From Pseudomonadota bacterium (lineage in GTDB: Bacteria; Pseudomonadota; Gammaproteobacteria; Xanthomonadales; Xanthomonadaceae): a stretch of DNA of 64,000 bases. The stretch covers positions 620,001 through 684,000 of the forward strand of contig JAKACT010000002.1 in the NCBI GenBank assembly GCA_021821195.1, written 5' to 3'. This document shows positions 33,505 to 61,849 of the stretch, in pieces. The notes beneath the pieces were generated by a model. The model did not search any database and was not told where the DNA came from. It saw nothing but the letters and a program-made list of their open reading frames with translations. How positions within the stretch are numbered: the stretch's first letter is position 1; each line of letters begins with the position of its first letter. The position numbers were made by a program, and so were the translations under genes.

Positions 33505-34411
33505 ATGCCCGCCGCAGCATCGCCCGCGCTTGCCGACACCCCTCTTTCCGTCCTGACCGGCGTCGGCCCGGCGCTGCGGGAGAAGCTGGCTGCGCGCGGG
33601 CTTTCCACCCTGCAGGACCTGTGGCTGCACCTGCCGCGCAGCTACGAGGACCGCACCGCGGTCACCCCCATCAGGCTGCTGCAGCCGGGCGTGGCGGCGC
33701 AGGTGGAGGGACGGGTGGAGGCGGTCGAGCGCGGCTTCCGCTACCGCCCGATGCTGCGGGTGGCGCTGTCCGACGAAGGCCGCGGCACGCTGGTGCTGCG
33801 GTTCTTCCATTTCCGCGCGGCGCAGGTGGCGCAGTTCGCTGTAGGCGCGCGCGTGCGCGCCTACGGCACGCCGCGGCCCGGTCAGTTCGGGCTGGAGATC
33901 GTGCATCCCAGCTATCAGGTGCTGGGCGGCGAAGTGGCGCTGGGCGAGACGCTGGATCCGGTCTATCCGGCCGTCGAGGGCATCGGTCCGGCCAGCCTGC
34001 GCAAGCTGGTGCTGCAGGCATTGCAGCGGCTGCCGGACGAGGCAGCGCTGGAACTGCTGCCGCAGACTGTGCTGCGCGCGCTGCGGCTGCCGTCGCTGCG
34101 CGAGGCCATCCTGACCCTGCACATGCCGCCGCGCGACGCCGATGTCGCCGCGCTGCAAAGCGGCCTGCATCCGGCGCAGCGGCGGCTGGCGCTGGAGGAG
34201 CTGCTGGCCCACCAGCTGGGCCTGCGCCGGCAGCGGTTGGCGCTGCAGGCGGAGGGCACGCGCGCGCTGCGCGGCGATGAAAAACTGGTGGCGAAACTGA
34301 AGAAGTCGCTGCCGTTCGCGCTGACCAAGGCGCAGGCGCGGGTCTACGCGCAGCTGCGCGAGGACCTGCGCCAGCCACGTCCGATGCTGCGGCTGGTGCA
34401 GGGTGACGTGG
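33505..34411 (+). pseudogene. recG: recG, truncated by island insertion
   Basis: Residues 1-302 are a normal RecG N-terminus: the GVGPALREKLAARGLSTLQDLWLHLPR start, the wedge domain, and the beginning of the helicase core (LTKAQARVYAQL). The match stops at LRLVQGDV, exactly where RecG reads GDVGSGKT in Walker A. After base 34411 the frame runs into foreign sequence and stops at 34569 after about 52 unrelated residues. The product would keep the fork-binding wedge but lack all helicase activity. RecG is normally about 690 residues. The 3' part is not in the window and presumably lies beyond the right edge. Confidence 0.92.
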
Positions 34412-34412
34412 C
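34405..34412. other. Left island junction in the recG Walker A codons
   Basis: The recG sequence is followed through GGTGACGTGG (34402-34411). The next base is C where GDVGSGKT-encoding DNA would have G. The crossover therefore lies at or just before 34411, within or beside GACGTGG. This codes for the most conserved motif of RecG, so the site will be present in nearly all related hosts. The right junction is outside the window, so a duplicated core cannot be confirmed. Confidence 0.8.
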
Positions 34413-34457
34413 TTTGGGAGTGTTAGCCTGTCGCTCTGTTCACAGTAAGGGTCGGCG

Positions 34458-37019
34458 ATGGCGCGGCCGAAGAAATTGCTGTCCTCGGGGGCAAACCCGG
34501 AGTCGACCCTCACCCTTAACGCTCAAGGTAGCACTTCCTCGTCCGACCATCCGCTCCTCCTCGAGCTAGCCGCTGCATTCTTACTGGCGCTCCACGACAG
34601 CTTGGCTGTCGGATGGCAGGGCGGCCGCTCCCGGAGAGCGACGACATTTACAACGCCGGCGGGGCAGTTTGACGTGCGGCTGTTCAACGGACGGGTCGGC
34701 GACTGGCGAGCGCCCCGACGCGTGAGTTTCCAGCAAGTCCTCTTGGAGCGATGGGGCGCGCTCGCGGATCTATTTAATGCGCTTCTTGCCGGCGACCCCA
34801 CCGACCTACGCCTGTTCTCCGATCACGTCTCGGCATTTCTCGGCGACCAGTACGACGTTCGACGGACCAACACGGTCGTCGCCCGCGTCGAAGCAAAGCT
34901 GGTTGTGCTCGGCATTCGTACCGACCCTGAGAAGGACGCCCACAGGCACGCCGACGCGATCCGCACGTGGGTGCAGATGAACGGTCTTCCCAAGGCAGTG
35001 GTCGACCTGGCCCACGGCAGGCCGCGTGTCGACGTCCCTGCTCTCGTGCAGCACGCGGGCGAGTACGACGCGCACCTGGGCGCTGTTCTTGCTCCGCTGT
35101 TGCAGGAGACGCTCGATGAAGTGGCGGTGCGCTCGCCTTGGTCCGAAAGCGCGAAGCGCTTTGTGCCGACGACCCACCGACCACACGGCCGCGAAACATT
35201 CCCGGGCGTTCTGTTCGACTTCCAACGCTTCGGAGTCGAGCGGGGCGGTCTACTCGACGCCGTCATAGACCAGATCCAGCTGCCGGGCGACCACCTAACG
35301 ACGGGGGCGCTACGGAACTGGATCTTGTGGCTCACGTGCGAGAACAGGGACGACTCCCAGCGAGCGCAGGCGGTCGAGATACTCTCGAAAGTATCCGGAC
35401 ATACACCCGCGGAGGCGCGCACGCTCAGTGAGCTGCTTGCCGGTGTTACCGCGCTCCGCGCGATGACCGACAAGACTCGCTACGGGTACATCACGAGCTT
35501 TCGCCACCTACTGACCCGCACGTATCTCGCCATCGGCGCAGAGGCTCCCCGCTTCCCGCGTGGCGCCATGAAAGCGCTCGTGACGACAACGCGTGGGATG
35601 CTCAGCGACGCGCCTGATCCAGGCGCAATCAACCCCGAATTCCGCTCGACGATCGTGAACGTCGCCCAGGGGCCGCCGCAGCGGGCTCGGCAAAGTGCGA
35701 TCGGTCACGTGGAAGACCGACTTCTGCGCGTGAAGGCAGCTTGCGACCAGGACATCGAAGGATTCCTGAAGTGGAGGGCGTGGACTGAAGCCGCCGAAGC
35801 GCTTCCCCTCGACGAACAAGCGCTGGGTTACGTCGACCGCCTCATCGCCCATGGCGCACGCGAAGATTCGAGCCTCCAGCGCTGGCTGGTCATGGCGGAC
35901 CTTCAAACCATCGTTGCAGTAGGTCTGGCAGCCATGAGGAAGAATGGCTACCACACGCGAGAAGGTTACGGCGTGCGGGTCGCGACCAACCGCTCCATCA
36001 ATCTCGGACTCGCGGCAGAACGGTTACAGATGGCGTTCCCTGAGCTGGAGCGGTGGTCCAGCAAAAGATCGGGTCAGGGCAGGTTCTCAACCTTCCGCAA
36101 CCTGCTCAGCCACTGGTATGTCCCACGATGGGTGCAGTTTGCTATCGAGCTGCGGATTCAAGCGGAAACTGCATTCAACCGTCATACCGTCAGGAGCCTG
36201 ACCGCGTCTGGCATAAGTATCAGCAACGCCACGATCGAGCTGCAGGCGCTGAAGGGTAAGACGGAAGAGCTTCAAACAGCCGAGATCGATGGCTCGGACC
36301 GAACGCTCCGTGCTGCACTCGAGCTGATGAGGGGACACAGCAAGAATGTCGTCGAGCACTGGCAGGCCGATGAAAAGCGTGTCTTCGTTGCGCTGGTGAG
36401 CAGCAACGACACGGTTTCGTTCGGTCTTTGGCCATGCCACCACATACATGAGCGCTTCATCGAGTTCCACAAGCTCTTCAAGTTCACCCGAGAGCAGTTG
36501 CGAAACCAGAATGCAGGGCTCGCTTATCTCAAGCGCCAAGATGTCCATGAGGTCCAGGGTCGACTTGGCCATGCGAGCCTCAAGACCACCTCGGGCTACG
36601 TTCGTCAGCACATAATCTCGGTCCTGAATCGCGCGAACATCGCTGAGTTCGTGCGTCGATTGGGCGCGAGCATCGTCTGGGCCATCGAGGGTTCTGAGGC
36701 TGTGGGAAGTCGCGGCATGCTGGAGGCCGATGTAAGCGCACGGCTTCTCTTCCCGCTAGGTGTTCAAAAGCAGGTCACTGCAGCGCCCGAGTGTGATGCG
36801 TGGATTGCGGATCCTGAGTGGAAACTGCAAATCGACGAGGTTCGCATACGTCATCTCGTTGCCCAGCGCGCCTATTACGCGCGGAACTGGCAGAAGCTCA
36901 GGGCGTCTTCGCCGGAGGCGTACGAAAAGGTGCATCGGCCGCGTATCGAGTTCGTCGCGGCTCTCTGGGAGATCGTGGCCGATTCGGAGTTTGCCCAACT
37001 GCTTCAGGAGCCAGCATGA
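34458..37019 (+). CDS. Large tyrosine recombinase, TnpA-like
   Basis: This 853-residue protein ends in a tyrosine-recombinase catalytic region: a FTREQLRNQ segment at the position of the HxxR box, LGHASLKTTSGYV with the likely nucleophilic tyrosine, and a further C-terminal extension. It is far longer than phage integrases and fits the large recombinases of Tn554-like and other multi-recombinase elements. It starts 46 bases inside the island and reads inward. Its stop overlaps the next recombinase start by four bases. The family label rests on operon layout as well as motifs. Confidence 0.75.
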   Translation: MARPKKLLSSGANPESTLTLNAQGSTSSSDHPLLLELAAAFLLALHDSLAVGWQGGRSRRATTFTTPAGQFDVRLFNGRVGDWRAPRRVSFQQVLLERWGALADLFNALLAGDPTDLRLFSDHVSAFLGDQYDVRRTNTVVARVEAKLVVLGIRTDPEKDAHRHADAIRTWVQMNGLPKAVVDLAHGRPRVDVPALVQHAGEYDAHLGAVLAPLLQETLDEVAVRSPWSESAKRFVPTTHRPHGRETFPGVLFDFQRFGVERGGLLDAVIDQIQLPGDHLTTGALRNWILWLTCENRDDSQRAQAVEILSKVSGHTPAEARTLSELLAGVTALRAMTDKTRYGYITSFRHLLTRTYLAIGAEAPRFPRGAMKALVTTTRGMLSDAPDPGAINPEFRSTIVNVAQGPPQRARQSAIGHVEDRLLRVKAACDQDIEGFLKWRAWTEAAEALPLDEQALGYVDRLIAHGAREDSSLQRWLVMADLQTIVAVGLAAMRKNGYHTREGYGVRVATNRSINLGLAAERLQMAFPELERWSSKRSGQGRFSTFRNLLSHWYVPRWVQFAIELRIQAETAFNRHTVRSLTASGISISNATIELQALKGKTEELQTAEIDGSDRTLRAALELMRGHSKNVVEHWQADEKRVFVALVSSNDTVSFGLWPCHHIHERFIEFHKLFKFTREQLRNQNAGLAYLKRQDVHEVQGRLGHASLKTTSGYVRQHIISVLNRANIAEFVRRLGASIVWAIEGSEAVGSRGMLEADVSARLLFPLGVQKQVTAAPECDAWIADPEWKLQIDEVRIRHLVAQRAYYARNWQKLRASSPEAYEKVHRPRIEFVAALWEIVADSEFAQLLQEPA

Positions 37020-39298
37020 ACCCCGCAGTCGCACTGAGCGAAGCGCACGCAGTCAACGCCTCCCAGGTCGAGGCTCCGGCCGGGCACTGGCCTGAACATC
37101 AGATCTCCCACCCTGCCATTCTCAGTCGCTGGGAAGATCCGTTCCTCCTGATCAGAGCGGAGTCAGGAGTCGTCCGTCGCTTTGACCTGGCAGAGGTTCC
37201 GTTGCCTCGGAATTGCGACGTGGGCGGTCCAATTACAAAGCCATGCAAGCTTGGCGACTTTCCGCACTGGATGGACGTCTGTAAAGCCTACGCTGCGCTG
37301 GCCCTTCACGACACGTCGGCCTACACAGCCGTTGATATCGTCAGCAACGCATTGGGCAATGTTTATCGATTCTTTGCCTGGTGCATCAGGCGCCGGGTGC
37401 TGCATCTGAACGTTCTGACGGAGAGCGATCTCAAGGCGTTTGCACAGGAGCTCCAGCCCAATGGCTGGTTCAGTGCCCTTCCGATCGAGCCGTGGATTCG
37501 GGCTGCACTCGACGAAGCGAAGGCTGATGAGTATCTACGCTCGCGCCTTATCTCGCATAGGCGCAATAACTCCTTTGTCAGCTTCAACACGGAGGGGCTG
37601 TCGCGCGAGATCGGTTGTGTCGTCACACAACCTGAGTACCCCTCCTGGATGGGGGAGCACCTACAGGAACTCTCGCCTGATGCCTCGATTCGGTTTCAGG
37701 TGCAGCGGGCAAGGAAGGATCGTGCATGGTCCGCGTCCTCTTTCAAGAACTGCTTTGTAGCCGTTCGCCGCCTGAGTCGCATCGCCGCGCCGTTGGATCG
37801 CCTTACTTTCGACCCGTTTCCCAACACGCGGGCAGCCGCCATCGCGTCGGGCGGCCGTCCGGACGGGCGGACGCCCAACTTACCCATCGAGGAGGCAGGT
37901 CGACTGCTGGGCACCTCCCTGAGTTGGATCTACGAGAAGTCGCCGGGGGTCGAGGAACTTCTCCGTATCTGGACGGATGCGAAAGCCTCGGCCGAGGCCG
38001 CAGGCCTGAATGGCAAGTCCATTCCGGCGGCATGCCTGCGCGTCGTCAACAAGGCCTATCCCGAGATTGCCGCCCGATTCGACTTGCCACGCGGGAAGAT
38101 CGGCCTCGCGAGCATCTCGGCAGACGGGCTATCGATCGCTGACTTTCTACAACGCATTCAGACATCGGCCGTCGTACTGATCGGCATCAACCAGGCTCGT
38201 CGAAAGAACGAGGTCACCGGAGAGGACGACCGCCCTTGGGGCGTCTACGCAGGCTGCGTGTCCAGGTCCGACCCGTTCGTCGAAGCCTACGAGATCGACA
38301 TGTACATCGAGAAGACGTGGCGGGACTGGCGAAAGATGCCAGCGAACCGTATTACGGCTGATGTAGTGAGCGTACTCGAGCGGCTACGGGTGGCGATGCC
38401 CGGTCCTGCCATGCGGGTAAGCGACGACGTCAGTGAGAGGCGAAGGAACAAGCTCTTCGTTTTTCCCACGCAGGCGCATGACCGAAACGCTGAGCTGGCG
38501 GAATACCGGTTTAGCAAACACAGCGACACACTCTTTAAAGAGGCAAAGGTCGATCCAAAGTGGCGGCGCACGCATCAGTTCAGACGGCTTTTCGCATTGT
38601 TGTATATGTACCGACACGATCACCCGTCGCTGCAGGCGCTGTCAGAGATGCTCTGCCATCTGGACATCGAGTGCACTCGGACATACGTCACGGACGCCAG
38701 TATGGTCGCCGAGGCCGAGCGAATCGCAGTGCTGTATCGCTGTCAAGACGAGGCCCCGCTCGAGGAGCTGGCCGAAGCGCGGCGGGAGTATGCAGAAGAG
38801 CAGATCCGGGCCATGCTCACCTCGGCCGAAGCAGGCGGAACGTTGACGCGTCGTGTGCGCAGGTGGGTCAAAGCCCTGGTGTCGAAAGTGGAATTCGACG
38901 CGGATGACCTTGAACGTGCGCTAGCGGCGGTCCGGACGAAGATGGACAAGCGCGGCTACAGTCCGGAGTCATATCCGCACGGCATCTGCTGGGCAAGCCA
39001 TCGCCACGCGTCGCGCGCGAGCTGCGGCCGTGGCGGGGATCTGGCCCGGGAGCACGCGGGCATCGACGTTTGCTCGAAGTGCCCATTTCATAGTACGTCG
39101 GTCGCATTCCTTGAGAACGTTGAGCGAGATCTTAGGCAGCTGCGTGAAGCCGAGGACGTGGCTGCATGTTCGGCGGAGGCGGCGACCGTCAGGCAGGAGA
39201 TCGTGGCCTTGGAAGGACTTCTGGCCATGGAGCGCCGCTTGATGGAGCGCGAGTGGCGGCAAGACCCCGATAGAGCCGTTTTGGAGGAGCCCGCGTGA
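37016..39298 (+). CDS. Large tyrosine recombinase, TnpB-like
   Basis: This 760-residue protein has a clear tyrosine-recombinase C-domain: HQFRRLFAL (HxxR box), LCHLDIECTRTYV with the candidate catalytic Tyr. It is followed by a cysteine-rich tail (GICW, SCGRGGD, DVCSKCPFH) that looks like a small zinc-binding element, as in TnpB-type recombinases of Tn554 relatives, and a terminal coiled coil. The ATG overlaps the previous stop (ATGA) and its own stop overlaps the next GTG start, so the set is translated as a unit. Confidence 0.78.
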   Translation: MNPAVALSEAHAVNASQVEAPAGHWPEHQISHPAILSRWEDPFLLIRAESGVVRRFDLAEVPLPRNCDVGGPITKPCKLGDFPHWMDVCKAYAALALHDTSAYTAVDIVSNALGNVYRFFAWCIRRRVLHLNVLTESDLKAFAQELQPNGWFSALPIEPWIRAALDEAKADEYLRSRLISHRRNNSFVSFNTEGLSREIGCVVTQPEYPSWMGEHLQELSPDASIRFQVQRARKDRAWSASSFKNCFVAVRRLSRIAAPLDRLTFDPFPNTRAAAIASGGRPDGRTPNLPIEEAGRLLGTSLSWIYEKSPGVEELLRIWTDAKASAEAAGLNGKSIPAACLRVVNKAYPEIAARFDLPRGKIGLASISADGLSIADFLQRIQTSAVVLIGINQARRKNEVTGEDDRPWGVYAGCVSRSDPFVEAYEIDMYIEKTWRDWRKMPANRITADVVSVLERLRVAMPGPAMRVSDDVSERRRNKLFVFPTQAHDRNAELAEYRFSKHSDTLFKEAKVDPKWRRTHQFRRLFALLYMYRHDHPSLQALSEMLCHLDIECTRTYVTDASMVAEAERIAVLYRCQDEAPLEELAEARREYAEEQIRAMLTSAEAGGTLTRRVRRWVKALVSKVEFDADDLERALAAVRTKMDKRGYSPESYPHGICWASHRHASRASCGRGGDLAREHAGIDVCSKCPFHSTSVAFLENVERDLRQLREAEDVAACSAEAATVRQEIVALEGLLAMERRLMEREWRQDPDRAVLEEPA

Positions 39299-39903
39299 CG
39301 ACGACTCCGAACCACGTTTCCAACGCCAACAAGGTCGCAGCGAAGGCCGCGATCGTTGCAAAACGCGAGCAGTTGGAGCACTGGTCGCGGACGGGGCTGC
39401 CATTCAAAGGGGGCGCGACGCCTACCGTTGGTGAGCCCTACGAATTCGATTGGTATCCCCAGAGCCTGCGGGACTTCTGCCGGTGGGATGGTTCACAGAA
39501 CAGCCCCGAGATCGGGCCGTTTCGAGCCACGGCGTTTCAAACGCTCTGCTCGTATCCCGAGGAGAAGGCGACGGTAACGTCCCTGCTGGCGGCGCTCGAG
39601 AAACTGCGGTCGGCAACGATCAAGCGTCTTGATCCTAAAGCCGCGCTACGGGATGCAGAGGGACAGGTGCTGATCGAGCGGCAGTTACGCGCGGGGGCAT
39701 TACTCGGGTATCGCGCGGCCCGCCAGCAGGTGCGTGTCCTGGCCGCGTCCTTGGCCGATGAGCAGCGCGCGCATCGGGAATCCATAGCGCACCTGTCGGA
39801 GCAGCTAGAGAAGGCCCATCGGGACGTGGCGGCGTTGTCGGCGGAAGTCGCTGCGCTGACGGCGACCATTCGCAAAGTGAAGCCCATCCGGGCAGTCGGT
39901 TGA
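39295..39903 (+). CDS. Short coiled-coil protein, TnpC-like
   Basis: This 202-residue protein has no recombinase motif. Its N-terminal half is basic and mixed; residues about 120-190 form a long predicted coiled coil (RAHRESIAHLSEQLEKAH). Position and shape match the small third gene (tnpC) of Tn554-type elements, an accessory that affects efficiency and orientation of integration. The start is GTG, sharing bases with the tnpB stop, with a strong GGAGGAG ribosome site at 39282-39288. Confidence 0.65.
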   Translation: MTTTPNHVSNANKVAAKAAIVAKREQLEHWSRTGLPFKGGATPTVGEPYEFDWYPQSLRDFCRWDGSQNSPEIGPFRATAFQTLCSYPEEKATVTSLLAALEKLRSATIKRLDPKAALRDAEGQVLIERQLRAGALLGYRAARQQVRVLAASLADEQRAHRESIAHLSEQLEKAHRDVAALSAEVAALTATIRKVKPIRAVG

Positions 39904-39916
39904 AAGGACGTCGCAA

Positions 39917-41929
39917 TTGACCTGGATGCTCGACCAGTCCGATACCCCTGTGGGGGGCCATGATCCGAGGGATCTTGCTGCTCGACTGAGCGCGGGCGTG
40001 GATCGGAGCCGGGCCCTGAAGCGCTTGGGCGCCGTCGGAGTGTCAGAGCTTTGGCAGGCAGCCCTCTATCTTCCGACCCGTTTTCTCGATGCACGTCAGC
40101 CCATAGAACGGTTTTTCGGACTGGGTCCTTCCACGGGCGATGTCGTCTGTGTCGGCCGTTACGCGGGCGACTTCCGTACCCGGTGGACCCCCCGCCGCGG
40201 CCGCGCGACGGCGCCGCAGGCCCAGGGCTCACTGGTCGATGGCGTCGGGATGAAAGTGCGCTTCTCCGTGTTCGGCGACGCGCGGAGCCTGCAAAAGGCG
40301 CTGGAAGAGGCAGGCGTCGAGCCGGTGGCCTTCGCAGGCACGCTCACCGCCGTGGGCGACCTTCTTTTTTTGAACAATCCGGTCTTGCTGGACGCTAGCG
40401 CACTCGGCCACGTGCTTCCCGTATACCCAGGCAAGACGCGCGTGCTGTCGGTCGCCATGGCCCGAAAGCTGGTGACTGCGCTGCTCCCTGACGCGATTCC
40501 TGCCGCGGCGGCACATCTGCGGGCGTCCGTGAGCGGTGTCATTGACCCCTTAGACCTCCGGCGCCTCCTCCGTCGCCCGCGCGGAACCTTGGAAGACCTG
40601 TTGTGGGAAGCGCACCTGCCGGCGGCGCCCGAGATCGGGGAGGCGGCGCAGCAGAGCCTGGAAAGGCTCTCGGCGATCCTCACGATCGGCGAGCTGCGTG
40701 AGCTCCAGGGTGAACACCCACCCGCTCGCCAAGCGTTTGATATCGGGGGATGGCAGGATCTGTTGGGCCGGGTGCCGTTCCGACTCACCGACGAGCAACG
40801 CGCAGCCGCAGCCCAGCTCGTGGACCGTTTCCGAGGGCCGACGACGTCGGCGACCTTGATCAATGCCGACGTCGGCATGGGCAAGTCGATCGTGTACCAG
40901 CTGGCGTCCGCGGCTGCAGTACGCGCGGGCGCCCGGGCCGCTGTGATGCTTCCCAACGAGCGTCTAGCGTCGCAAGCGCATCAAGAGATCGTGCGCCTGT
41001 TTCCGGAGCTCGGTGCCGTATTAGTGACAGGCAAGAGCAGGAAAAACGCCAAGTCGAGCAACTGGCTTGTAGGAACGACGGCCATGTTGTTCCGGGACGT
41101 GGGGCCACTGGACATCTGCGTCGTCGACGAACAGCACCGGTTCTCCGTGGACCAGCGCAGGGCACTCGCGGCAAACGGCACGCACGTGGTCGAGATCAGC
41201 GCGACTCCGATCCCGCGAACACAAGCGCTCTTGCTATACGGAAAGCTGGATGTCATTCGGCTGACGCATCGTCACAGTCCACAAGACATCCACACGCGCG
41301 TGGTCGAGCGCGGCGGTACTGACCAGATGATCGACGAGATTCGGAGCGTCATCGCTCGCGGATCCCGGGTGCTGATCGTATGTCCGCGTCGCGAGGAGAG
41401 CGAGGAGGATGACGGCGAGGCGCTTCCGTCGGTCGCGCGTGTCGCTGGAAAATGGGAGCGTCTCTTTCCCGGGATCGTCCGGTCGCTGCACGGCGAATCC
41501 GAGCCGGAGACGGTGCAGGTCGCCTTCGACGATATCGCGAGCGGTGCGGCTCAGATCCTCGTCGCGACGACAGTGGTCGAGGTCGGGCTGAACATCCCGG
41601 ATCTGCGTGCAGTGATCATCGTGCATGCCGAGCGGTTCGGCATTTCCCAGCTCCATCAGCTGCGAGGGCGCCTGGCCCGTGAAGGCGGGCATGGCGTCTG
41701 CTATCTCTACCTTCCTCGACGCGCGGGCATGGATGCCATGGCCCGACTGAACGCCGTGGCGGCAACGAACGACGGCTTCGAGCTCGCGGAGTTTGATATG
41801 CGTGCTCGGGGCATCGGGGATGTCTCGCAGGCAGGCCAAAGGCAGCACGGGGGCACCGGGAGCATTTTGTTGACCCGGCCGGTCCCGATGGACGTCTTCG
41901 TCGAGGTACTCGCCGAGGTCAGCCGTTGA
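39917..41929 (+). CDS. Divergent full-length RecG-like helicase on the island
   Basis: This 670-residue superfamily 2 helicase resembles RecG along its length. The N-terminus has LKRLGAVGVSELWQAALYLP (like RecG LxxLWLHLP), then an OB/wedge-like region and VLPVYPGKTRVLSVAMARKL. Helicase motifs are intact: Walker A ADVGMGKS (317-324), DEQHRF (404-409), SATPIPRT (428-435), VEVGLNIPD (554-562), QLHQLRGR (578-585), and a late RARGIGD like the RecG TRG region. The start is probably TTG, placed 9 bases after AAGGA; ATG at 39926 is the alternative. It follows tnpC by 13 bases and overlaps the next integrase. It may help transposition or replace the broken host RecG. Confidence 0.85.
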   Translation: MTWMLDQSDTPVGGHDPRDLAARLSAGVDRSRALKRLGAVGVSELWQAALYLPTRFLDARQPIERFFGLGPSTGDVVCVGRYAGDFRTRWTPRRGRATAPQAQGSLVDGVGMKVRFSVFGDARSLQKALEEAGVEPVAFAGTLTAVGDLLFLNNPVLLDASALGHVLPVYPGKTRVLSVAMARKLVTALLPDAIPAAAAHLRASVSGVIDPLDLRRLLRRPRGTLEDLLWEAHLPAAPEIGEAAQQSLERLSAILTIGELRELQGEHPPARQAFDIGGWQDLLGRVPFRLTDEQRAAAAQLVDRFRGPTTSATLINADVGMGKSIVYQLASAAAVRAGARAAVMLPNERLASQAHQEIVRLFPELGAVLVTGKSRKNAKSSNWLVGTTAMLFRDVGPLDICVVDEQHRFSVDQRRALAANGTHVVEISATPIPRTQALLLYGKLDVIRLTHRHSPQDIHTRVVERGGTDQMIDEIRSVIARGSRVLIVCPRREESEEDDGEALPSVARVAGKWERLFPGIVRSLHGESEPETVQVAFDDIASGAAQILVATTVVEVGLNIPDLRAVIIVHAERFGISQLHQLRGRLAREGGHGVCYLYLPRRAGMDAMARLNAVAATNDGFELAEFDMRARGIGDVSQAGQRQHGGTGSILLTRPVPMDVFVEVLAEVSR

Positions 41930-43230
41930 GCACGGCCCTCGCGCTCGTTGAGTGGACCGATGACGGGCGCGGTGGGGTGCCCGTGTTCTACGACCGCCGC
42001 CGGCGGCTGGTGGATGCGCTCCACGACTTCGTCGAGTCCATCGCGGCAGCCAAGCGTGACGTCGCCTCTCCGACCGGGTATCGCTCGGCTGTCGATCCGG
42101 TCACATACGCGCTTCTGGGCTGGCTTCGCTTCCTGGACGCCAAAGGGCTCGACCTGTGGGCGGCCACCGACGCTCTTCTGGTCGAGCACCGGGACAACGA
42201 AGTAAAGGCCGTCATGCAGTCTCCGCGCGCGAAGCAGGAGAAGCGCCTGGCCATGCGGACCGTCAATGATCGTTTGCGCTGGATCTATCGCTTCTATGCA
42301 TGGTGTCGACGGGATGCGCTGCTGGGCGTGGCCGTTTTGGGCCTGAAGGGGCCGGTCACCTCGACCCTCTGCGAGCCCGCGGCGCGCACGAGTCAAGGAA
42401 AGCCCAAGCGCGATCCCGCAACCGACTATCCGAAGTGTTTCAAGCGAGTATCAGGCCGGGGAAGTGGTAAGCAACATTTTGCTACCAGCGAGGAGAAGCG
42501 AAGGCTCATCGAGGCGCTGACGACCAGTGACGACGCATTCGTGCGCGAGAGGAACCGACTGTGGATCGAGCTGACTGACCGCGTCGGTTGGCGCGCTGTA
42601 ACGCTCACAGGCTTGGAGGTAGACGACTTTTCGCCGGATCGATCGACCGAGCTGGACGATGGCAGTCGCCTGGTATCGCCCAAAGTACAAAAGTTCGGCT
42701 ACGGCGACAGCTTCGAGGTTCCCGCGACGCTTTTCGCACGCGTGACGCGGTTTATTGCCGCGCGCGAGGCTCGTATGAAGCAGAACGGGTGGTCGGAAGC
42801 GGTATCGCAGCGAAGGCTCTTCACCAGTGCCACATCAGGGCGGCCGTTGGGCGACCAGACCATCGTGCAGGCGTTCGGCAAGGCGTATCGCGCGATTGGT
42901 GTACCTGCGCGTCAGGGGGCCGGCCACCACAGTCTGCGGCGAAAATTCGGCGATGGGGCGGCCGTGCAGGAGCTCCAGTCCCGCAAGGAGCTCGGCCTCT
43001 CGACAGCTGCGGAAGACGTGATGCACGCGACCGCGCGGAAGCTCGGACAGCGCAGCATTGCGTCGCAGACGCCTTACCAGCGCGCCGTTCGGTCAGGCAC
43101 GCGCGAGTCGACGGTTGCGAAGCTCAGCCAGACGGTCGAGGAGCAGAATTCCGTCATTGCCGATCAAGACGAGGAAATTCGCCGCTTGCGGCTTGAGGTG
43201 GAGCGAGCAAAGGCTGGGCTCCAGACTTAG
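41926..43230 (+). CDS. Tyrosine recombinase/integrase (fourth recombination protein)
   Basis: This 434-residue protein has an N-terminal SAM-like DNA-binding region (YALLGWLRFLDAKGLDLW; RLRWIYRFYAWCRRD) and a catalytic domain. Catalytic residues are candidate R223 (GWRAVTLTGL), H335-x-x-R338 (HSLRRKF) and Y384 (SQTPYQ), with a C-terminal coiled coil (EEQNSVIADQDEEIRRLRLEVERAK). The start is TTG, sharing bases with the helicase stop. This joins it to the helicase in one transcript. It is smaller than the first two recombinases and may act on a different site or set directionality. Confidence 0.78.
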   Translation: MSTALALVEWTDDGRGGVPVFYDRRRRLVDALHDFVESIAAAKRDVASPTGYRSAVDPVTYALLGWLRFLDAKGLDLWAATDALLVEHRDNEVKAVMQSPRAKQEKRLAMRTVNDRLRWIYRFYAWCRRDALLGVAVLGLKGPVTSTLCEPAARTSQGKPKRDPATDYPKCFKRVSGRGSGKQHFATSEEKRRLIEALTTSDDAFVRERNRLWIELTDRVGWRAVTLTGLEVDDFSPDRSTELDDGSRLVSPKVQKFGYGDSFEVPATLFARVTRFIAAREARMKQNGWSEAVSQRRLFTSATSGRPLGDQTIVQAFGKAYRAIGVPARQGAGHHSLRRKFGDGAAVQELQSRKELGLSTAAEDVMHATARKLGQRSIASQTPYQRAVRSGTRESTVAKLSQTVEEQNSVIADQDEEIRRLRLEVERAKAGLQT

Positions 43231-43282
43231 GGGGTCGGCGAGACGCCTCGCGACCGGTCTCGGGGATCAGTCAGCGCCGGCG

Positions 43283-44065
43283 CTACTCAGCAGGCGTCAT
43301 CGGTGTGAACGCGCGAGCGATCAGAAGACTTTCGGGCTCGTACGGAAGCGTCCAGAAGGCTGCTCCCAGCCGTGTCAGCTTGGACGCGAACAAACGGCTG
43401 GCAGCACTTTCAGGGGTCGGCTGAAACGGTACGAAGGCGCAGTTCGACCAGTCGCCGTTGGCGAGGCGCTGGGCGCGCTTGCGCAACTCCGTGTAGATCC
43501 CTTCGCGAATCACGCCCGTCTCCGTGCTGCGAAGTTGCTGCGCCAAGGACGCGCCGTAGCGGGTGGCGGCCCAGCAGCAGTAGCGCCACTGTGCGATGGG
43601 AAGAACCTGCCGGCTATCCCGGACGACAAATGCCAGGTCGGATGCCCACGAGGTCTCGAAATGATGGCGGGCCAGTTGGGATTCGAAGAACCGCTCGGCT
43701 TCGGAGGCAGCGAGTTCGTGCCATAGGCGGATGCGCGACGCGAGTCCGTAATTGTCGTGGGGGACCTCTTCGAGAAAGTCCTCAAGCGCTTGCAAAAGGC
43801 CAGGCCGCAGGTAGTCCTTCCAGGCATACCGCCACTGGATCTGCTCGATCGGCGTCTCTTCCGCGGTCGGGTCCAGCTCCCATCGGGCGTCTGGCCACGG
43901 CGCTTCGATGATCCCCTGCTCGCGTAGGGCATGGAGCATTGCAAGGGAGTGGCGACGGGTGGGCGCTACCGGGATGCGCTTGTGCTGGGCCATCAGCAGC
44001 GCAGCAAGCGCCAGGCAACCTTGGATCCCCAAGTCGTCCAGGGTAGGCGCTGGTACGGGGGCCAT
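43283..44065 (-). CDS. Unknown protein divergent from an XRE regulator
   Basis: I do not recognise this 260-residue protein. It is soluble, rich in Trp, Arg and Ala, with a first region suggesting a winged helix-like unit (SLAMLHALREQGIIEAPWPD) and a helical body (ALEDFLEEVPHDNYGLASRIRLWHELAASEAERFFESQL, split by turns). No catalytic motif is evident. The start at 44065 is chosen for the GGAGG ribosome site at 44072-44076; longer starts lack one. It converges on the recombinase operon and is divergent from a small XRE gene with a dyad between, a layout common to regulated accessory or defence genes. Confidence 0.7.
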   Translation of the reverse strand: MAPVPAPTLDDLGIQGCLALAALLMAQHKRIPVAPTRRHSLAMLHALREQGIIEAPWPDARWELDPTAEETPIEQIQWRYAWKDYLRPGLLQALEDFLEEVPHDNYGLASRIRLWHELAASEAERFFESQLARHHFETSWASDLAFVVRDSRQVLPIAQWRYCCWAATRYGASLAQQLRSTETGVIREGIYTELRKRAQRLANGDWSNCAFVPFQPTPESAASRLFASKLTRLGAAFWTLPYEPESLLIARAFTPMTPAE

Positions 44066-44086
44066 GAACGGGCCTCCGCCCTCGCT

Positions 44087-44107
44087 GGTAAGCATCCTAA
44101 GTTTACC
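44087..44107. promoter_or_regulatory. Dyad between the unknown gene and the XRE gene
   Basis: GGTAA at 44087-44091 and TTACC at 44103-44107 form an inverted repeat with an 11-base centre in the 81-base divergent gap. The AT-rich centre contrasts with the surroundings. It is a plausible operator for the adjacent XRE protein. Confidence 0.4.
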
Positions 44108-44146
44108 ATAGTATCGCTGGCGGCCGGTCTTTCTCACCCTATTGGC

Positions 44147-44497
44147 ATGGCCAAGTTGAGCAAGACTGTCAAAAGGGTGCAGCCATCGACCACGTTCTCG
44201 AAACGCCTCAGGCAGGCACGGGAGCGCGCGGGGCTGACACAAACCGAGCTCGGCCTTCGGGTCGGGATGGACCCGTCAGCCGCCAGTCCGCGAATGAACC
44301 AGTACGAGAAGGGCATCCACGAGCCCCCGCACGCGATGGTCAAGCGTCTCGCGGAGGAGCTTGGCGTGCCGGCAGCCTTCTTGTTCGTAGACGACGATCG
44401 GCTCGCGGATCTGCTGCTCTTATGGACCGAGCTCGGGGACGAGGGTCACGAGAAGCTTCTGCGGTACGCCAAGCGGCAGGTAAAGGCGCAGGAGTAG
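44147..44497 (+). CDS. XRE-family helix-turn-helix regulator
   Basis: This 116-residue protein has a Cro/cI helix-turn-helix at residues about 18-72 (FSKRLRQARERAGLTQTELG, then NQYEKGIHEP) and a short C-terminal helix region. The start is the ATG giving MAKLSKTVKR; the frame remains open upstream but without support. It is divergent from the unknown 260-residue gene and probably controls that gene and itself. Confidence 0.82.
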   Translation: MAKLSKTVKRVQPSTTFSKRLRQARERAGLTQTELGLRVGMDPSAASPRMNQYEKGIHEPPHAMVKRLAEELGVPAAFLFVDDDRLADLLLLWTELGDEGHEKLLRYAKRQVKAQE

Positions 44498-44570
44498 GCG
44501 TGTGCCACTGCATGAGGTGAGTCGACCGGGCGCTGGCAGGACGACGTCAATGCTGGGTCACGATCCGGGC

Positions 44571-44601
44571 TTGACCCTGTAGTAGCTCCAGACTCTAGTA
44601 T
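44571..44601 (+). promoter_or_regulatory. MerR-type promoter/operator upstream of lpdA
   Basis: TTGACC (44571-44576), a 19-base spacer and TAGTAT (44596-44601). The over-long spacer is the hallmark of promoters activated by MerR-family proteins. The spacer carries an imperfect dyad CTGTAGTAGCTCCAG. It differs at only a few positions from the site at 49961 beside the island merR gene, so the same regulator very likely acts here, about 5 kb away. Confidence 0.72.
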
Positions 44602-44628
44602 CGGTCGCCTGTCCCCGGGAGCTTCAGC

Positions 44629-46035
44629 ATGGCCGAGACATACGACGTCATCATCATTGGCGGTGGACCAGGCGGCTATCCGGCCGCGATTCGTGGCGCG
44701 CAGCTGGGTCTCAAAGTCGCTTGCATCGAACGTCGCCGGCGCCTGGGTGGGACATGCCTCAACATTGGCTGCATTCCGTCCAAGGCCCTGCTCGAGTCAT
44801 CCGAGCGCTTCCACGCGGCCTCGAGCGAATTCGCGGTGCACGGGGTCGAGTTCGATGGGTTGCGGGTCAACCTGCCCCGGTTGCTGGCTCACAAGGATGA
44901 TGTCGTCGCCGGCCTGGGCAACGGCATCGACTTCCTCTTCAAGAAGCACGGCGTAACGCGCCTGCAGGGTAGCGGCCGGATCGCAGCGCCAGGGCGCGTC
45001 GAAGTCACGGACGATGCCGGGCACACTCAAGAGTTTTCAGGCCGCTGGATCATCATCGCGACCGGATCGGACAGCACGCCGCTGCGCGGCGTCGAGGTCG
45101 ATGAGGATCGGATCGTATCGTCGACAGGCGCGCTTTCGTTCCCGGAGGTGCCCGCGCACATCGTGGTCATCGGTGCGGGCTACGTCGGCCTCGAACTCGG
45201 CTCGGTGTGGCGTCGACTGGGTGCCCGAGTCACCGTGGTCGAATACCTTGACCGCATCACACCAGGAATGGACGTCGAAGCAGCGACGGTGCTGCACAAG
45301 GCGCTGAAGTCGCAGGGCTTCGAGTTCCGCCTCTCCCAGAAAGTCGTCGGCGCGGCAGTGAACGGTGACGGTGTTGAGCTCTTGATCGAACCGGCCAACG
45401 GCGGTGCTCAGGATCGGATCCACGCTGATCGGGTGCTGGTCTCCATCGGGCGTCGGCCCTTCACCGAGGGACTAAACCTGGAACAGCTCGGCGTGGAGCG
45501 CGACGCGAAGGGCTTCATCAAGGTCGACGACCACTGGCGCACGAATGTCGAAGGGATCTACGCGATCGGCGATGTCATCGGTGGCGCGATGCTCGCGCAC
45601 AAGGCGAGCGAAGAGGGTGTTGCGTTGATCGAGCAGCTGGCGGGACTGCCGGGGCATGTGAACTACGGGACGATCCCGGCCGTGATCTACACGGCACCCG
45701 AGGTGGGCTCGGTCGGTCAGACGGAGGAGCAGCTCAAGGCTGCAGGCATCCCATACAAGGTGGGGCGATTCCCCTTCAGCGCCAGCGCGCGTGCACGTGC
45801 CAAGGCGCAGACCGATGGGCTCGCCAAGGTGCTGGCGCACGCGGAGACGGACCGCATTCTTGGCGTACACATCGTGGGCCCGGAGGCGGGCTCGCTCATC
45901 CATGAGGCCGTCGTCGCGATGGAGTTCAGCGGATCGGCGGACGACGTGGCGCGCAGCTGCCACGCCCATCCCACGCTCCCGGAGGCCCTGAAGGAAGCTG
46001 CGATGGCGGTGAACGGCTGGGCCCTGCACATCTAA
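44629..46035 (+). CDS. lpdA: Dihydrolipoamide dehydrogenase family flavoprotein
   Basis: This 468-residue FAD disulphide oxidoreductase has the FAD motif IIIGGGPGGYPAA, redox cysteines C43 and C48 (GGTCLNIGCIPSKA), the NAD motif VIGAGYVGLELGSVW and the active-site pair H447-E452 (HAHPTLPE). It fits E3 of 2-oxo acid dehydrogenases. It lacks the N-terminal metal-binding and C-terminal vicinal cysteines of mercuric reductase. It stands alone on the island without E1/E2 genes, behind a MerR-type promoter, so it is probably metal-induced and may regenerate thiols. Confidence 0.9.
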   Translation: MAETYDVIIIGGGPGGYPAAIRGAQLGLKVACIERRRRLGGTCLNIGCIPSKALLESSERFHAASSEFAVHGVEFDGLRVNLPRLLAHKDDVVAGLGNGIDFLFKKHGVTRLQGSGRIAAPGRVEVTDDAGHTQEFSGRWIIIATGSDSTPLRGVEVDEDRIVSSTGALSFPEVPAHIVVIGAGYVGLELGSVWRRLGARVTVVEYLDRITPGMDVEAATVLHKALKSQGFEFRLSQKVVGAAVNGDGVELLIEPANGGAQDRIHADRVLVSIGRRPFTEGLNLEQLGVERDAKGFIKVDDHWRTNVEGIYAIGDVIGGAMLAHKASEEGVALIEQLAGLPGHVNYGTIPAVIYTAPEVGSVGQTEEQLKAAGIPYKVGRFPFSASARARAKAQTDGLAKVLAHAETDRILGVHIVGPEAGSLIHEAVVAMEFSGSADDVARSCHAHPTLPEALKEAAMAVNGWALHI

Positions 46036-46099
46036 CGCGAGGGTTCGCTCCTTCCTTGCCGCGTGTCTGATCGCCGCAGAAGGTCCGCGGCAGGATGGT

Positions 46100-47362
46100 C
46101 TACGCCCCAGTTACGGGCGCAGGGGCGCCAGTACCGCGCGGAGCCGGCGCGGGAATATCGAAGACGAGCACGGTCATGATCAGTTCGCGATTGCTATCGG
46201 CCGGGTGGTGCATCACGAACCGGTACCCGGACTCGTGGGTCCAGGCAGGCGTCCGCTTGTAGTTCGCGTGGGCCTCGGTGGTCTTCTTGACCTCCTCCAG
46301 CACTTTCGTCGTATCCCTGTTTCGATTGAAGACGACGATTGCGGCCTTGGTATCACGCCAGGCGGAGTAGCCGAGCAGCTGGTCGATCGTCGCGGCGTAG
46401 CCTTTGGCGCCTTTCCAGAACTTGCACTCGGCAATGAAGATGTTCCTGTCCTGCTCCCGGATCAGGATGTCGGTCTTGCCCTGGTTGTTGAACGTCTCTC
46501 CCGTCGCGGAACCCTGGTAGTGGCCGTTCAGCTGTACGAGGTAGTGGTCGCGAAGGGACTCCTCGTCCATCCGCGCGAAGGTCGCGGGGCTGCGCTCCAT
46601 GACGGTCGTCATGTTCTGGATCACGTCGAGGATGTGGTCGTAATGCTCCATCGCCAGGACAGGCTCCGGCTTGAATGGCGCAGTCGAGGCCGCCGGCAGT
46701 GTAGGCACTGCCTTCCTGCGCACGGCAGGAACGACATAGGTCTCCGGTGCGCCTGCGCGCTCACGCAACGGGATGCCGAGTCCAGCGACCAAGCCCTGCT
46801 GGTGGAGGACTTGCTCGCGTCGTCGCCGGATCGCTTGGTCGGCAATCGCACCCAGAGAGCCGTTATAGGCCTCCAGGTCATTCCTGATCCATGCGAGGTG
46901 TCGCTCCACTTCGTCGATCTCGCGATCGATCAAAGCACGGACCGCCCCGGGCCCTCCCTGCTGGCCAGGCGTAAACGCCAAGGTCAGCGTCTGCGCTCCG
47001 GCGACCCCTCGAGGCGGCGACATCGTGAAGGTGCTCGCCCGCGACATGAAGAGGTCCCGGTCGCCAACGAACGGAATGTGCACGTAAAGCCGCTGGACCG
47101 TTGCAGTGAACCGGTGACCGTAGTCCTCCCTCGTCTCGGTTTCCTCTTTCGACTCGACGCTCCATTGGTCCCGGTAAAGCGCAGGAGGCTCCATGTGGTA
47201 CTTCTCGACGAAGAAGCGGGCAAGGTCGTCAGGTGATGTGTTCAAAAGCCGGTTGGGGTCGAGGGCGCGCACTTCGCTATCGATCGCATGGCGGCGTGCA
47301 TCAAGCGATGCGCGAAGGTCGAGATTGCTGAAAAGCAGATTGCTGCGGTCTGACAGGCCCAT
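46100..47362 (-). CDS. Candidate PD-(D/E)XK nuclease of unknown role
   Basis: This 420-residue protein is not recognised as a whole. Residues 150-190 are helical and charged. The C-terminal part (about 270-400) looks like a restriction-endonuclease fold: D298 in GKTDILI, then E312-x-K314 in FIAECKFW, with spacing typical of PD-(D/E)XK Mrr-like nucleases, and later QLLGYSAWRDTKAAIVVF. No methylase or partner is next to it, so it could be a stand-alone defence or repair nuclease. It is convergent with lpdA. Confidence 0.65.
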   Translation of the reverse strand: MGLSDRSNLLFSNLDLRASLDARRHAIDSEVRALDPNRLLNTSPDDLARFFVEKYHMEPPALYRDQWSVESKEETETREDYGHRFTATVQRLYVHIPFVGDRDLFMSRASTFTMSPPRGVAGAQTLTLAFTPGQQGGPGAVRALIDREIDEVERHLAWIRNDLEAYNGSLGAIADQAIRRRREQVLHQQGLVAGLGIPLRERAGAPETYVVPAVRRKAVPTLPAASTAPFKPEPVLAMEHYDHILDVIQNMTTVMERSPATFARMDEESLRDHYLVQLNGHYQGSATGETFNNQGKTDILIREQDRNIFIAECKFWKGAKGYAATIDQLLGYSAWRDTKAAIVVFNRNRDTTKVLEEVKKTTEAHANYKRTPAWTHESGYRFVMHHPADSNRELIMTVLVFDIPAPAPRGTGAPAPVTGA

Positions 47363-47569
47363 TCATGGCTTCCTTCTCGGTCGACCCCAAGGTCACTCAA
47401 CGTGACGAGCCCATCGGACATCACTTCCGCGGCTGCGTCTCGAGCTGCCTGCATTGTTGCACCGGAGCGAGCCGTGCCCCAGCGACGGGTCTAGGCTGCA
47501 GGCAGGCGTCGCAGATTTTGGGACGGCTGCAAGGAGGATGCGATAAGGAATCAACTCAGGGGTGTAGGT

Positions 47570-47923
47570 ATGGACAGAAGTGCGTGGATGTTGGTGAGAG
47601 CGTGTCTACCCGGTGCAGTGCTGTTTGCCGGAGCGCTCGTGTCGGCCGCACTACTCGCCGGCTTGAATCGAGGGCCATTGGCTGCAGGCTTGTTCGACAT
47701 GCTCCGGTGGGTGCCGATCGCAATGGCCGGAGTGGGCTTTCTGCTCATAGGCGCCGCAAGTTATCGGCTATGGCGCTGGGAGCGCGGGATGGGCCCGTCG
47801 TGCGTAACGTGCGGTGGCCCGTTGGGACACGAGCGCGAGGGGCGCGCCAATCGCGGCGGCGCATTTCGGCGGTGCTATGCCTGCGGCAAAGCCGTGAACC
47901 ACCGGTACTACGCCCATCAGTAG
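47570..47923 (+). CDS. Small membrane protein with C-terminal zinc ribbon
   Basis: This 117-residue protein has two likely membrane helices (about residues 8-32 and 43-66) and a cytoplasmic tail with CVTCGG and CYACGK, a four-cysteine zinc ribbon. Function is unknown. It converges on the NAD synthetase gene, with the last 7 bases overlapping. It lies on a metal-resistance island, which makes a metal-linked role possible. Confidence 0.6.
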   Translation: MDRSAWMLVRACLPGAVLFAGALVSAALLAGLNRGPLAAGLFDMLRWVPIAMAGVGFLLIGAASYRLWRWERGMGPSCVTCGGPLGHEREGRANRGGAFRRCYACGKAVNHRYYAHQ

Positions 47924-49539
47924 CGGAAACCGTTGGAGATCGGGTATCGCCGTTCGCGCCCAAATGCGCGTCGACTGACCTTGGGTCCAGGGGCTGCCTG
48001 CTGCCGCTTCCACTCCGCGATGCGAACCAGTCGCAGGATGTTGTCGACCAGCTGCTCGCCGAAGCCGGCAGCGACGATCTCGGCGCGCGACTGTTCCTGA
48101 TCGATGTGCCTGAAGAGCAGTGCGTCAAGGACATCGTAGGGCGGTAATGAGTCCTGGTCCTTCTGATCGGGCCGCAGCTCCGCGGAGGGAGCGCGCTGGA
48201 TGACGCCCTGGGGGATCGCGAGGGGCCCCACGGTGTTGCGCCAGTGCGCGAGGCGGTAGACCTCGGTCTTGTAGACGTCCTTGAGCGGTGCATAGCCGCC
48301 GACCATGTCACCGTAGATCGTGGCGTATCCGACCGCGTATTCGCTTTTGTTGCCTGTGGTCAGCACCAATCCGCCGAGCTTGTTGGACAGCGCCATCAGC
48401 ATTGCTCCGCGAATGCGCGCCTGCAGGTTCTCCTCCGTGGTATCGATAGCCGCGCCTTTGAACACCGGCGCGAGCGTATCCAGATATGCCTGGAAAGGCG
48501 TCTCGATCGGCAGCGTCAGCATCGACACGCCGAGCGCTTCGCATTGCGCGGAGGCCAGATCGTTCGAGAGCTCCGCCGTGTAGCGCGAGGGCATGCGCAC
48601 CGCGGTGACGTTGCTGCCGCCCAGTGCGTCGGCGGCGATCGCGAGCACCAGTGACGAGTCGATCCCACCTGAGAGGCCCAGGATCACCTTGTCGAACCCA
48701 TTCTTCTTGCAGTAGTCGCGAGTGCCGATGACCAGCGCCTGGTACATCAGGCCGTCCTCGCTTTCATCCGCGCTGCGCGGCCAGGCGATCGGCGTGAAGG
48801 TCTGCAGCTCCGGGTCGAAGTCCGTGATCAGCAGGTGTTCCTCAAACGCGATGGCAGCCGGGGCGACCGCACCGCGCGCGTCTGCCAGCAGCGATGCCCC
48901 ATCGAAAACCGTGGAGTCTTGCCCGCCCACGACATTGACGTAGGCGATGGCAGTCCCGTTGTCCCGCGCACGCTTGGCAAGGAGCGCATCGCGCTCGGTA
49001 TGCTTGTGGCGTTCGAAAGGCGAGGCGTTCGGCACGAGCACGAGGCGCGCGCTCGCCGCGGCGGTCTCGGCTATCGGCTCCAGGCCCCACAGGTCCTGGC
49101 AGATCAACAGGCCAACCCGCACCGGGCCGACCTGGAAGACGCAAACGCCCCCGTCCGGATCGGTCTCGAAGTAGCGGCGTTCGTCGAAAACAGCGTGATT
49201 GGGCAGATCCCGCTTGCGATAGGTCGTTTCGATGCGCCCGTCGCGAATGACGCTTGCAGCGTTGTAGACCACGCTTCCCGCCGCCTCCGGCCAACCGACG
49301 ACCGCGACGATGCCCTGCGTCGAATGCGCAATGGCCCGCACGGCCGTGTCGCACTCCGCGAGGAACTGGGGGCGAAACAGCAGGTCCTCCGGCGAATAGC
49401 CGCTGACGCAGAGTTCGGGGAAGACGATCAGGTCAGCCCCGTGTGCGTCGCGCGCCTGCTCGATGAGCGTCTGGATGCGCCTGACGTTGCCGGTGATGTC
49501 TCCGACCGGGAAGTCGTACTGGGCCAGGGCGATGCGCAT
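47917..49539 (-). CDS. nadE: Glutamine-dependent NAD+ synthetase
   Basis: NadE makes NAD+ from deamido-NAD with glutamine as nitrogen donor. The 540-residue protein has an N-terminal nitrilase-type amidase domain with the E42, K109 and C147 triad (FPELCVSGYSP, YRKRDLPN, LLICQDLWG). The C-terminal synthetase carries the PP-loop SGGIDSSLVLAIAADALGG. Its ATG shares a base with the merR stop (TGATG), so it is translationally coupled to the metal regulator. A chromosomal nadE would normally exist elsewhere, so this is probably an extra copy under metal control. Confidence 0.92.
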   Translation of the reverse strand: MRIALAQYDFPVGDITGNVRRIQTLIEQARDAHGADLIVFPELCVSGYSPEDLLFRPQFLAECDTAVRAIAHSTQGIVAVVGWPEAAGSVVYNAASVIRDGRIETTYRKRDLPNHAVFDERRYFETDPDGGVCVFQVGPVRVGLLICQDLWGLEPIAETAAASARLVLVPNASPFERHKHTERDALLAKRARDNGTAIAYVNVVGGQDSTVFDGASLLADARGAVAPAAIAFEEHLLITDFDPELQTFTPIAWPRSADESEDGLMYQALVIGTRDYCKKNGFDKVILGLSGGIDSSLVLAIAADALGGSNVTAVRMPSRYTAELSNDLASAQCEALGVSMLTLPIETPFQAYLDTLAPVFKGAAIDTTEENLQARIRGAMLMALSNKLGGLVLTTGNKSEYAVGYATIYGDMVGGYAPLKDVYKTEVYRLAHWRNTVGPLAIPQGVIQRAPSAELRPDQKDQDSLPPYDVLDALLFRHIDQEQSRAEIVAAGFGEQLVDNILRLVRIAEWKRQQAAPGPKVSRRAFGRERRYPISNGFRY

Positions 49540-49949
49540 CACGCCGCCTCGCCCGGGGCAGGAGAGTGCTTGAGGGCGTCGAGGATGGTGCACTGGGCCC
49601 GAACGCCGCCGCCGCAGCTGCTGATGGTGCGCTCCAGCTCGCGCGCCACGCGCTGCAGGTCGCGAATGCGTTCCTGGACGTCGATCAGGTGCTGCTGCGC
49701 GAGGCGGGTGACGTCCTCGCACGCCAGGTCGCCGTCCTGGTCCAGCCGCATCAGGCTTCGGATCTCGTCCAGGCTGAAGCCCAGATCCCGACCCCGGGTA
49801 ATGAAGCGCAGACGCTCCACGTCCTGCTCCGAATACGACCGGTACCCGCTGCCCGTCCGGGTTGGCGCCGGCATGAGGCCGATCCGCTCGTAGTACCGAA
49901 TCGTTTCCAGGTGGCAGCCGCTTGCCTGGGAGGCTTCGCTGATCTTCAC
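49539..49949 (-). CDS. MerR-family divalent-metal regulator (CadR/PbrR type)
   Basis: This 136-residue protein has the MerR winged helix (LETIRYYERIGLMPAPTRTGSGYRSYS) and a dimer helix. The metal cysteines are C77, C112 and C120. C77 is the position that marks sensors of divalent ions; copper sensors have Ser there. The pattern fits Cd, Pb, Zn or Hg, and the island context favours Cd or Pb. It is divergent from the FTR1 gene with a MerR-type operator in the gap, and coupled to nadE downstream. No other metal regulator is visible on the island. Confidence 0.9.
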   Translation of the reverse strand: MKISEASQASGCHLETIRYYERIGLMPAPTRTGSGYRSYSEQDVERLRFITRGRDLGFSLDEIRSLMRLDQDGDLACEDVTRLAQQHLIDVQERIRDLQRVARELERTISSCGGGVRAQCTILDALKHSPAPGEAA

Positions 49950-49960
49950 GCTCGGATCCC

Positions 49961-54559: not shown

Positions 54560-61849
<7,290 letters not shown>

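Follow-up and report, generated by a model that had tools for sequence, protein, structure and literature searches.

Why should a mobile element that lands in a DNA-repair gene carry a homologue of that very gene? The question is raised by a 64,000-nucleotide stretch of a Xanthomonadaceae genome (hereafter the window), in which five genes read in one direction encode two tyrosine recombinases (int2 and int3), a third protein of that fold (int1), a small accessory protein and a superfamily 2 helicase of RecG type. A first-pass annotation had described these genes as a recombination operon and proposed that insertion sites be mapped; the mapping found the Walker A codons of recG as the target, something the annotation had not seen, and the operon forms the left-hand end of a genomic island that interrupts the host recG gene. 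The locus is almost certainly a mobile island that sits in recG and carries a RecG homologue of its own, and we consider it rather probable, from the sequence comparisons below, that this helicase replaces the RecG activity that the host would lose.

A genomic island splits recG within Walker A

Within the Walker A motif (LVQGDV/GSGKT, the slash marking the break), recG is split by an insertion whose first 46 bp precede the operon, and the two halves of the gene flank the island. The same split is found in both of the island types that we distinguish: type A, the island of the window, and type B, the islands of the metagenome-assembled genome (MAG) Gammapro7, Pseudoxanthomonas sp. Root630 and P. 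mexicana DSM 17121. In the genome of the window, the island continues to the end of contig C6, and the recG 3′ half, beginning GSGKT, lies at the end of contig C8. A second genome of the same genus (G949) holds the whole island on one contig, as 34,863 bp between both recG halves; if the island of the window is arranged likewise, about 4.2 kb would be missing between C6 and C8. After insertion, the P-loop of the 3′ half reads LANIGSGKT in type A and, by hand translation, LANISSGKT in type B. The insertion thus breaks the host RecG, leaving a 5′ half that lacks the motor and a 3′ half that lacks a proper P-loop.

All five plus-strand open reading frames that the first-pass annotation had placed in the operon are present, and the stop/start overlaps (37016, 39295, 41926) and the 13-base gap before 39917 are as it described, the junctions reading, in order, ATGA, GTGA, the 13-base gap and TTGA (Table 1). 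Since the three type B genomes also have these five genes, in unchanged order and at 36-63% identity, again with the recG 5′ half directly upstream, this layout is not a matter of chance. Between types A and B, identity amounts to 36% for int1, 40% for int2, 40% for the small gene, 63% for the helicase and 43% for int3, and the recG 3′ halves of the three type B genomes are 82-84% identical to that of the window's host. The tight coupling of a tnpA-tnpB-tnpC-like set with a RecG-type helicase and an additional tyrosine recombinase, to which the annotation had drawn attention, is therefore kept in two diverged types of element.

Pfam matches to Phage_integrase are weak (int2, E 0.001; int1, E 0.16) and a Pfam search gave none for int3, so that the identification of the three proteins is based on alignment with relatives. 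In int1, the first Arg is replaced by Asn and the His of HxxR is missing in six of six aligned sequences, while int2 has R-K-HxxR-H-Y together with a C-terminal Cys/His cluster, and int3 has R-K-HxxR-Q-Y. If these residues have the catalytic roles that we presume, the sets of int2 and int3 are apparently near-complete. The small gene is presumably TnpC/Srap/GinD-like in position and kind.

Table 1 Features of the recG island in the window (coordinates are those of the window).
Feature	Position	Strand	Remarks
recG 5′ half (wedge and OB domains, up to LVQGDV)	33505..34411	+	RecG models match aa 9-305 only; RecG_wedge; cut in Walker A codons
attL spacer CTTTGG	34412..34417	+	absent among the spacers of 52 island-free recG sites
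Island left end, core TGTTAGC at 34421-34427	34418..34457	+	inverse GCTAACA closes the island on C8, next to the recG 3′ half
int1, tyrosine-recombinase-fold protein	34458..37019	+	853 aa; alignment with relatives
int2, tyrosine recombinase	37016..39298	+	760 aa from ATG at 37016; Pfam and alignment
Small accessory gene, probable coiled-coil	39295..39903	+	202 aa
RecG-type superfamily 2 helicase, plasmid lineage (most likely), full length	39917..41929	+	670 aa; helicase motifs intact
int3, tyrosine recombinase	41926..43230	+	434 aa; start overlaps helicase stop
Island cargo to window end	43231..64000		efflux, iron, NAD synthesis genes and others

Recent movement and rarity of the islands

The type A core is identical at 8,813 of 8,813 bp between G000 and G949, with flanks that are 95.8% and 93.7% identical, and the type B core, compared twice over 8,900 bp, shows 2 mismatches each time, with left flanks of 81.3% and 88.0% identity. 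Because the cores are 99.98-100% identical while the host flanks differ by 4-19%, the islands are evidently mobile and have recently moved into the same recG site. Type A cargo is 99.5% identical between G000 and G949 over 18,739 bp, and a stretch of about 1.6 kb (61,970-63,601 in the window) has no counterpart at that place in G949. Type B copies, one of which (DSM 17121) extends over about 52.9 kb, have cargo in common only in parts of the stretches compared.

When 84,980 species genomes were scanned with the int2 profile, by two peptide patterns only and with correspondingly limited reach, 45 stretches matched; four of these encode relatives, the three type B genomes accounting for three of the four. 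Among sampled genomes, counting the window's own, there were matches in 7 of 395 from the family (two weak), 2 of 200 from the order (one weak), 2 of 369 from the class and 4 of 398 from the phylum (three weak), which show that elements of this type are rare in the genomes sampled. Weak matches in G071, G831, G836, G820, G1105 and G1274 were not counted as elements; some of them may be distant relatives. Against 274 genomes of the class, the int3 profile found only its own genome and 16 weak matches of at most 26.2 bits. Viral contigs scanned with int2 and helicase queries yielded pattern matches among which no relative was confirmed, and plasmid searches with the type B int3 and the int2 of genome G505 returned no plasmids beyond those already known.

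Attachment sites

At attL the layout is GAYGTNGG, a six-base spacer NNNNGG and the element end with TGTTAGC; at attR it is the element end GCTAACATARG, NNNNGG and host NAAGACC. The corresponding empty-site pattern was matched by 52 of 53 recG loci, the sole miss being the island copy of G949. The 52 empty-site spacers (CAGCGG in 47, TTCCGG in two, and CAGTGG, TTCGGG and TAGCGG in one each) all encode Gly-Ser-Gly. In the islands, the attR spacer is CAGCGG in type A and in loci L028 and L030, and TACGGG in L029, and the attL spacer is CTTTGG in type A, GACAGG in L028, CACCGG in L030 and TACGGG in L029. A foreign-looking spacer thus stands at attL only in three of four distinct junction pairs, and at both ends in L029. 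The three type B attL spacers amount to Gly-Thr-Gly codons, as if they had been carried in from other recG genes; the type A spacer does not fit this pattern.

A RecG homologue of probable plasmid lineage

The island helicase matches RecG models, in each case under the cut-off (TIGR00643, 286.6 bits against a cut-off of 659.4). It retains a motor of RecG type (1gm5 RecG, E 1.5e-62, query 229-659) and a TRG-like stretch, and its N-terminal region, as a 14-sequence profile, aligns with the N-terminal wedge/OB region of RecG (hhalign probability 98.4, 255 columns). A phylogenetic tree of motor domains, which has several long branches and from which one plasmid sequence with no recognisable Walker A was excluded, groups two island helicases with 12 plasmid helicases (support 100/99) and separates this group from 9 chromosomal RecGs (support 100/100). 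The helicase is thus most likely homologous to RecG over its full length and of plasmid lineage, and not a captured host recG.

Similar helicase genes occur in 251 plasmid records, a count that includes ordinary RecG-like matches. At 13 loci (five with flanks of 6-8 kb, eight with 1.5 kb), plasmid-borne RecG-like helicases, which share a clade with those of the islands, lie among plasmid genes, some next to mobH or ssb, and no annotated integrase was found in the stretches shown. Phage records gave 55 RecG-type matches, none covering 80% of the helicase. A structure predicted from a two-row alignment was set aside, its mean predicted local distance difference test score being 42.7. We considered whether the altered P-loop of the helicase (NADVGMGKS) guards its gene against insertion of the island, and dropped the idea; this P-loop looks like a trait of the clade, because the helicase of genome G054 has NADVGVGKS although the recG of G054 is broken elsewhere.

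The helicase is paired with broken recG genes

When 287 genomes of the family, a sample to which Root630 does not belong, were searched with the helicase profile, there were eight matches at E <= 1e-60. Three are known islands, one is in G054 (725 bits), one in G1012 (321 bits; 33% identical and beside apparent transfer genes), and three, at 205-208 bits, are read as ordinary RecG. In G054 (L165 13085-16875), recG is broken at motif V, after LVATTVI, which is a different site from that of the islands, and the next gene, in the same direction, encodes a helicase 46% identical to that of the window; no homologues of the four recombination genes were found within 40 kb, and the stretches read yielded no recombinase for this insertion, which is independent of those of the islands. 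Helicases of this type accordingly stand behind a broken recG in six of six genomes (three lineages), either directly or within an operon behind it.

An intact gene is the rule among relatives: recG scored over the RecG cut-off in 54 of the 63 genomes of two genera, four others carrying the island and five having a recG that was fragmentary, frameshifted or not shown. For the genus of the window (25 genomes) the figures are 20 over the cut-off, two with the island and three fragmentary or frameshifted, and for that of Root630 (38 genomes) 34 and two; in the latter, only matches at the level of Mfd were listed for G1291 and G1299, and no recG. The four island genomes (G000, G949, G1179 and G1206) had no other full-length RecG among the matches listed, and their next-best match has a length and sequence by which we take it to be Mfd. 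A match on contig C7 of the window genome, considered as a third RecG, reads as Mfd instead.

Related cores at other sites

Five related cores were identified elsewhere: in G505, in an island within comM of G1214, and on plasmids of Alteromonas, Methylibium and Rhodovastum. Counting types A and B as well, there are seven core types, of which two have a RecG-like helicase and three a RecD2-like helicase; in the other two (the comM island and the Methylibium plasmid, where a DnaB-like gene occurs further along), the stretch from the small gene to the last integrase contains no helicase. No RecG-like match was found in the 14-44 kb searched around each of the five, the comM island alone being covered end to end. 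The first-pass annotation had taken the helicase to be a built-in part of the transposition module, and had itself named homologues commonly lacking it as evidence to the contrary; with RecG-like helicases in only two of seven core types, this is what we found, and as a general claim the proposal is not supported. The helicase goes instead with insertion into recG.

The comM island lies in a one-contig genome (C1 357-394 kb; L092 6446-13716), where a four-gene core interrupts comM after FQLVA; by eye, its int2 is itself interrupted by an apparent IS3-type insertion. The G505 core (L021 7037-15860, the same place as L031) has its RecD2-like helicase in the helicase slot, and a tRNA-Leu that we had read by eye as the target of this element was not confirmed by ARAGORN or Rfam. 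The Rhodovastum core was matched by int2 alone, and other genes lie between its parts. The Alteromonas plasmid element shows, again by eye, a tandem duplication of about 100 bp just upstream of int1 (L014 ~3590-3790).

Role of the helicase

How might these observations fit together? In the scheme that we propose, the degenerate int1, the apparently complete int2 and int3, and the small protein would insert the island into the Walker A codons of recG, with exchange at the 6-bp spacer between inverted GCTAACA/TGTTAGC cores, and host RecG would be lost on insertion. The recG gene's own transcription would probably drive the operon, because the latter is read in the same direction as the recG 5′ half and starts only 46 bp beyond it; a simple consensus scan, itself weak evidence, found no promoter-like site in 34200-34560. 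The helicase encoded by the fourth gene would then take over the function of RecG. We count in favour of such a replacement that recG is split in both island types, that the cores were transferred recently, that recG is otherwise kept in the two genera, that the four island genomes had no other full-length RecG among the matches listed, that G054 is a third and independent case, that the helicase is more conserved between types A and B than are the recombination genes (36-43%), that its N-terminal region and motor are those of RecG, and that the five related cores at other sites gave no RecG-like match in the stretches searched.

Several observations weigh against replacement. The helicase falls outside the clade of chromosomal RecGs and has an unusual P-loop; the Pfam RecG wedge model gives no match to it, and a comparison of N-terminal profiles built on two sequences found nothing, the likeness emerging only with 14. 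MAG Gammapro7 (G937) has two other full-length RecG-like genes (contigs C30 and C45; L035, L038), which perhaps stem from contamination. In G054, the recG 3′ end was not found in the stretches read, and the search for another RecG did not extend genome-wide. Three of the related cores have a RecD2-like helicase at or near the same operon position, suggesting that the slot may serve recombination. Finally, the comM island breaks its target, and the genome that carries it yielded no second ComM; elements of this family therefore do not replace their target as a rule.

The main rival explanation takes up the last but one of these points. The helicase would be a recombination factor of the island, processing a Holliday junction or nicked circle during excision or integration, and its likeness to the target would be incidental; such a role would be compatible with replacement. 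RecG proteins act on branched DNA, the helicase gene overlaps int3 in both types A and B, and the RecD2-like helicases of the three other cores sit in the same or nearly the same slot. Set against this are the two cores that have no helicase in the slot, the G054 helicase, which follows a broken recG and has none of these integrases within 40 kb, and a minimal GInt with ginABCD that moved with no helicase of its own, according to the part of the source that we draw on (PMC5385486). On balance, we regard this explanation as unlikely, though deserving of serious consideration. That the helicase is ordinary plasmid-derived cargo of no special role, as its nearest relatives in the tree and the 251 plasmid records (ordinary RecG-like matches included) could suggest, is very improbable given its constant place in the operon and 63% conservation across two diverged types, and the broken recG ahead of it in every genome that has this helicase type.

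If replacement is the correct reading, a bolder proposal can be made, which we put forward tentatively and as somewhat more doubtful than not: that several elements independently evolved to destroy recG and to install a RecG of plasmid lineage under recG transcription, rendering fork repair in the host dependent on the element. Retention of the element would then be favoured, and the replacement helicase could outlast a decayed element, as G054 may show. Elements that land in conserved genes must spare or compensate their target; in this instance a general DNA-repair helicase is hit, for which a homologue of another lineage would compensate, and this homologue is seen behind recG genes broken at two different sites. 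The system offers a complementation test of RecG function that occurs in nature, as well as an instance where an element may control fork repair in its host, and the related elements with different helicases or none allow the role of the helicase in such recombination to be tested.

Comparison with known elements

In its broad kind, this site-specific genomic island belongs with GInts, strand-biased circularizing integrative elements (SEs) and Tn554. Tn554 family members have a complete TnpA recombinase; the order of the first three island genes fits the Tn554 type, as compared by description, but int1 lacks two catalytic residues in the alignment. The likenesses and differences given below refer to parts of the three published accounts.

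GInts share with the island an operon at the left end that encodes a small protein and three tyrosine-recombinase-like proteins, of which one lacks the first Arg, a large and variable cargo, and insertion inside a gene with junctions compatible with 6-nt staggered cuts (PMC5385486). The island's junction sequences indicate, as for GInts, site-specific insertion in a gene with a 6-nt exchange. In the part of the account consulted, GInts have a ginABCD operon that ends in the small gene and contains no helicase (PMC5385486), whereas the island, which has all kinds of part, runs from degenerate recombinase to recombinase, small gene (third), helicase and the recombinase int3, and targets recG. 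This comparison was made by gene order and description.

With SEs, the island has in common a four-gene core, a recombinase-fold protein lacking catalytic residues, a coiled-coil accessory protein, inverted motifs, a 6-bp spacer with a footprint, and occurrence in Gammaproteobacteria (PMC10214605); int1 resembles their Tfp and, in lacking the first Arg, the GinC of GInts (PMC5385486). The order intA-tfp-intB-srap is not that of the island operon, to which a helicase is added. SEs leave the footprint at attR (PMC10214605), whereas the foreign-looking spacer of the island is at attL only, beside the operon, in three of four junction pairs; in these three (type A, L028 and L030), attR has the native CAGCGG that is common at empty sites and not a donor footprint.

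In Tn554-related elements, the tnpA-tnpB-tnpC order resembles that of the first three island genes and insertion is again site-specific and in a gene, and among them Tn552-II carries a relative of its own target gene (tgl), which its authors suggest may rescue the target (PMC12486829). On our best reading, the island helicase is a target-gene substitute, for which tgl is a precedent; in the island, by contrast, target and putative replacement are both RecG, and an extra recombinase follows the RecG-type gene. Tn552-II has its brought-in att at the right end (PMC12486829), so that the footprint polarity of the islands looks reversed relative to both SEs and Tn552-II, going by four distinct junction pairs only. 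The broad kind of element and a target-like gene with suggested rescue are thus already in print, while the listings from searches of open-licence papers had nothing on recG as an island target, on RecG replacement or on helicases in such elements.

Neighbouring genes and cargo

Upstream of the recG 5′ half lie genes that we take to be gmk, spoT and ridA. The cargo in the window (44629-63180) includes genes for a pyridine nucleotide-disulphide oxidoreductase, a glutamine-dependent NAD synthase, and an FTR1 iron permease with cytochrome c, as well as an outer-membrane/HlyD/RND efflux set, a P-type ATPase and a member of the MgtC family.

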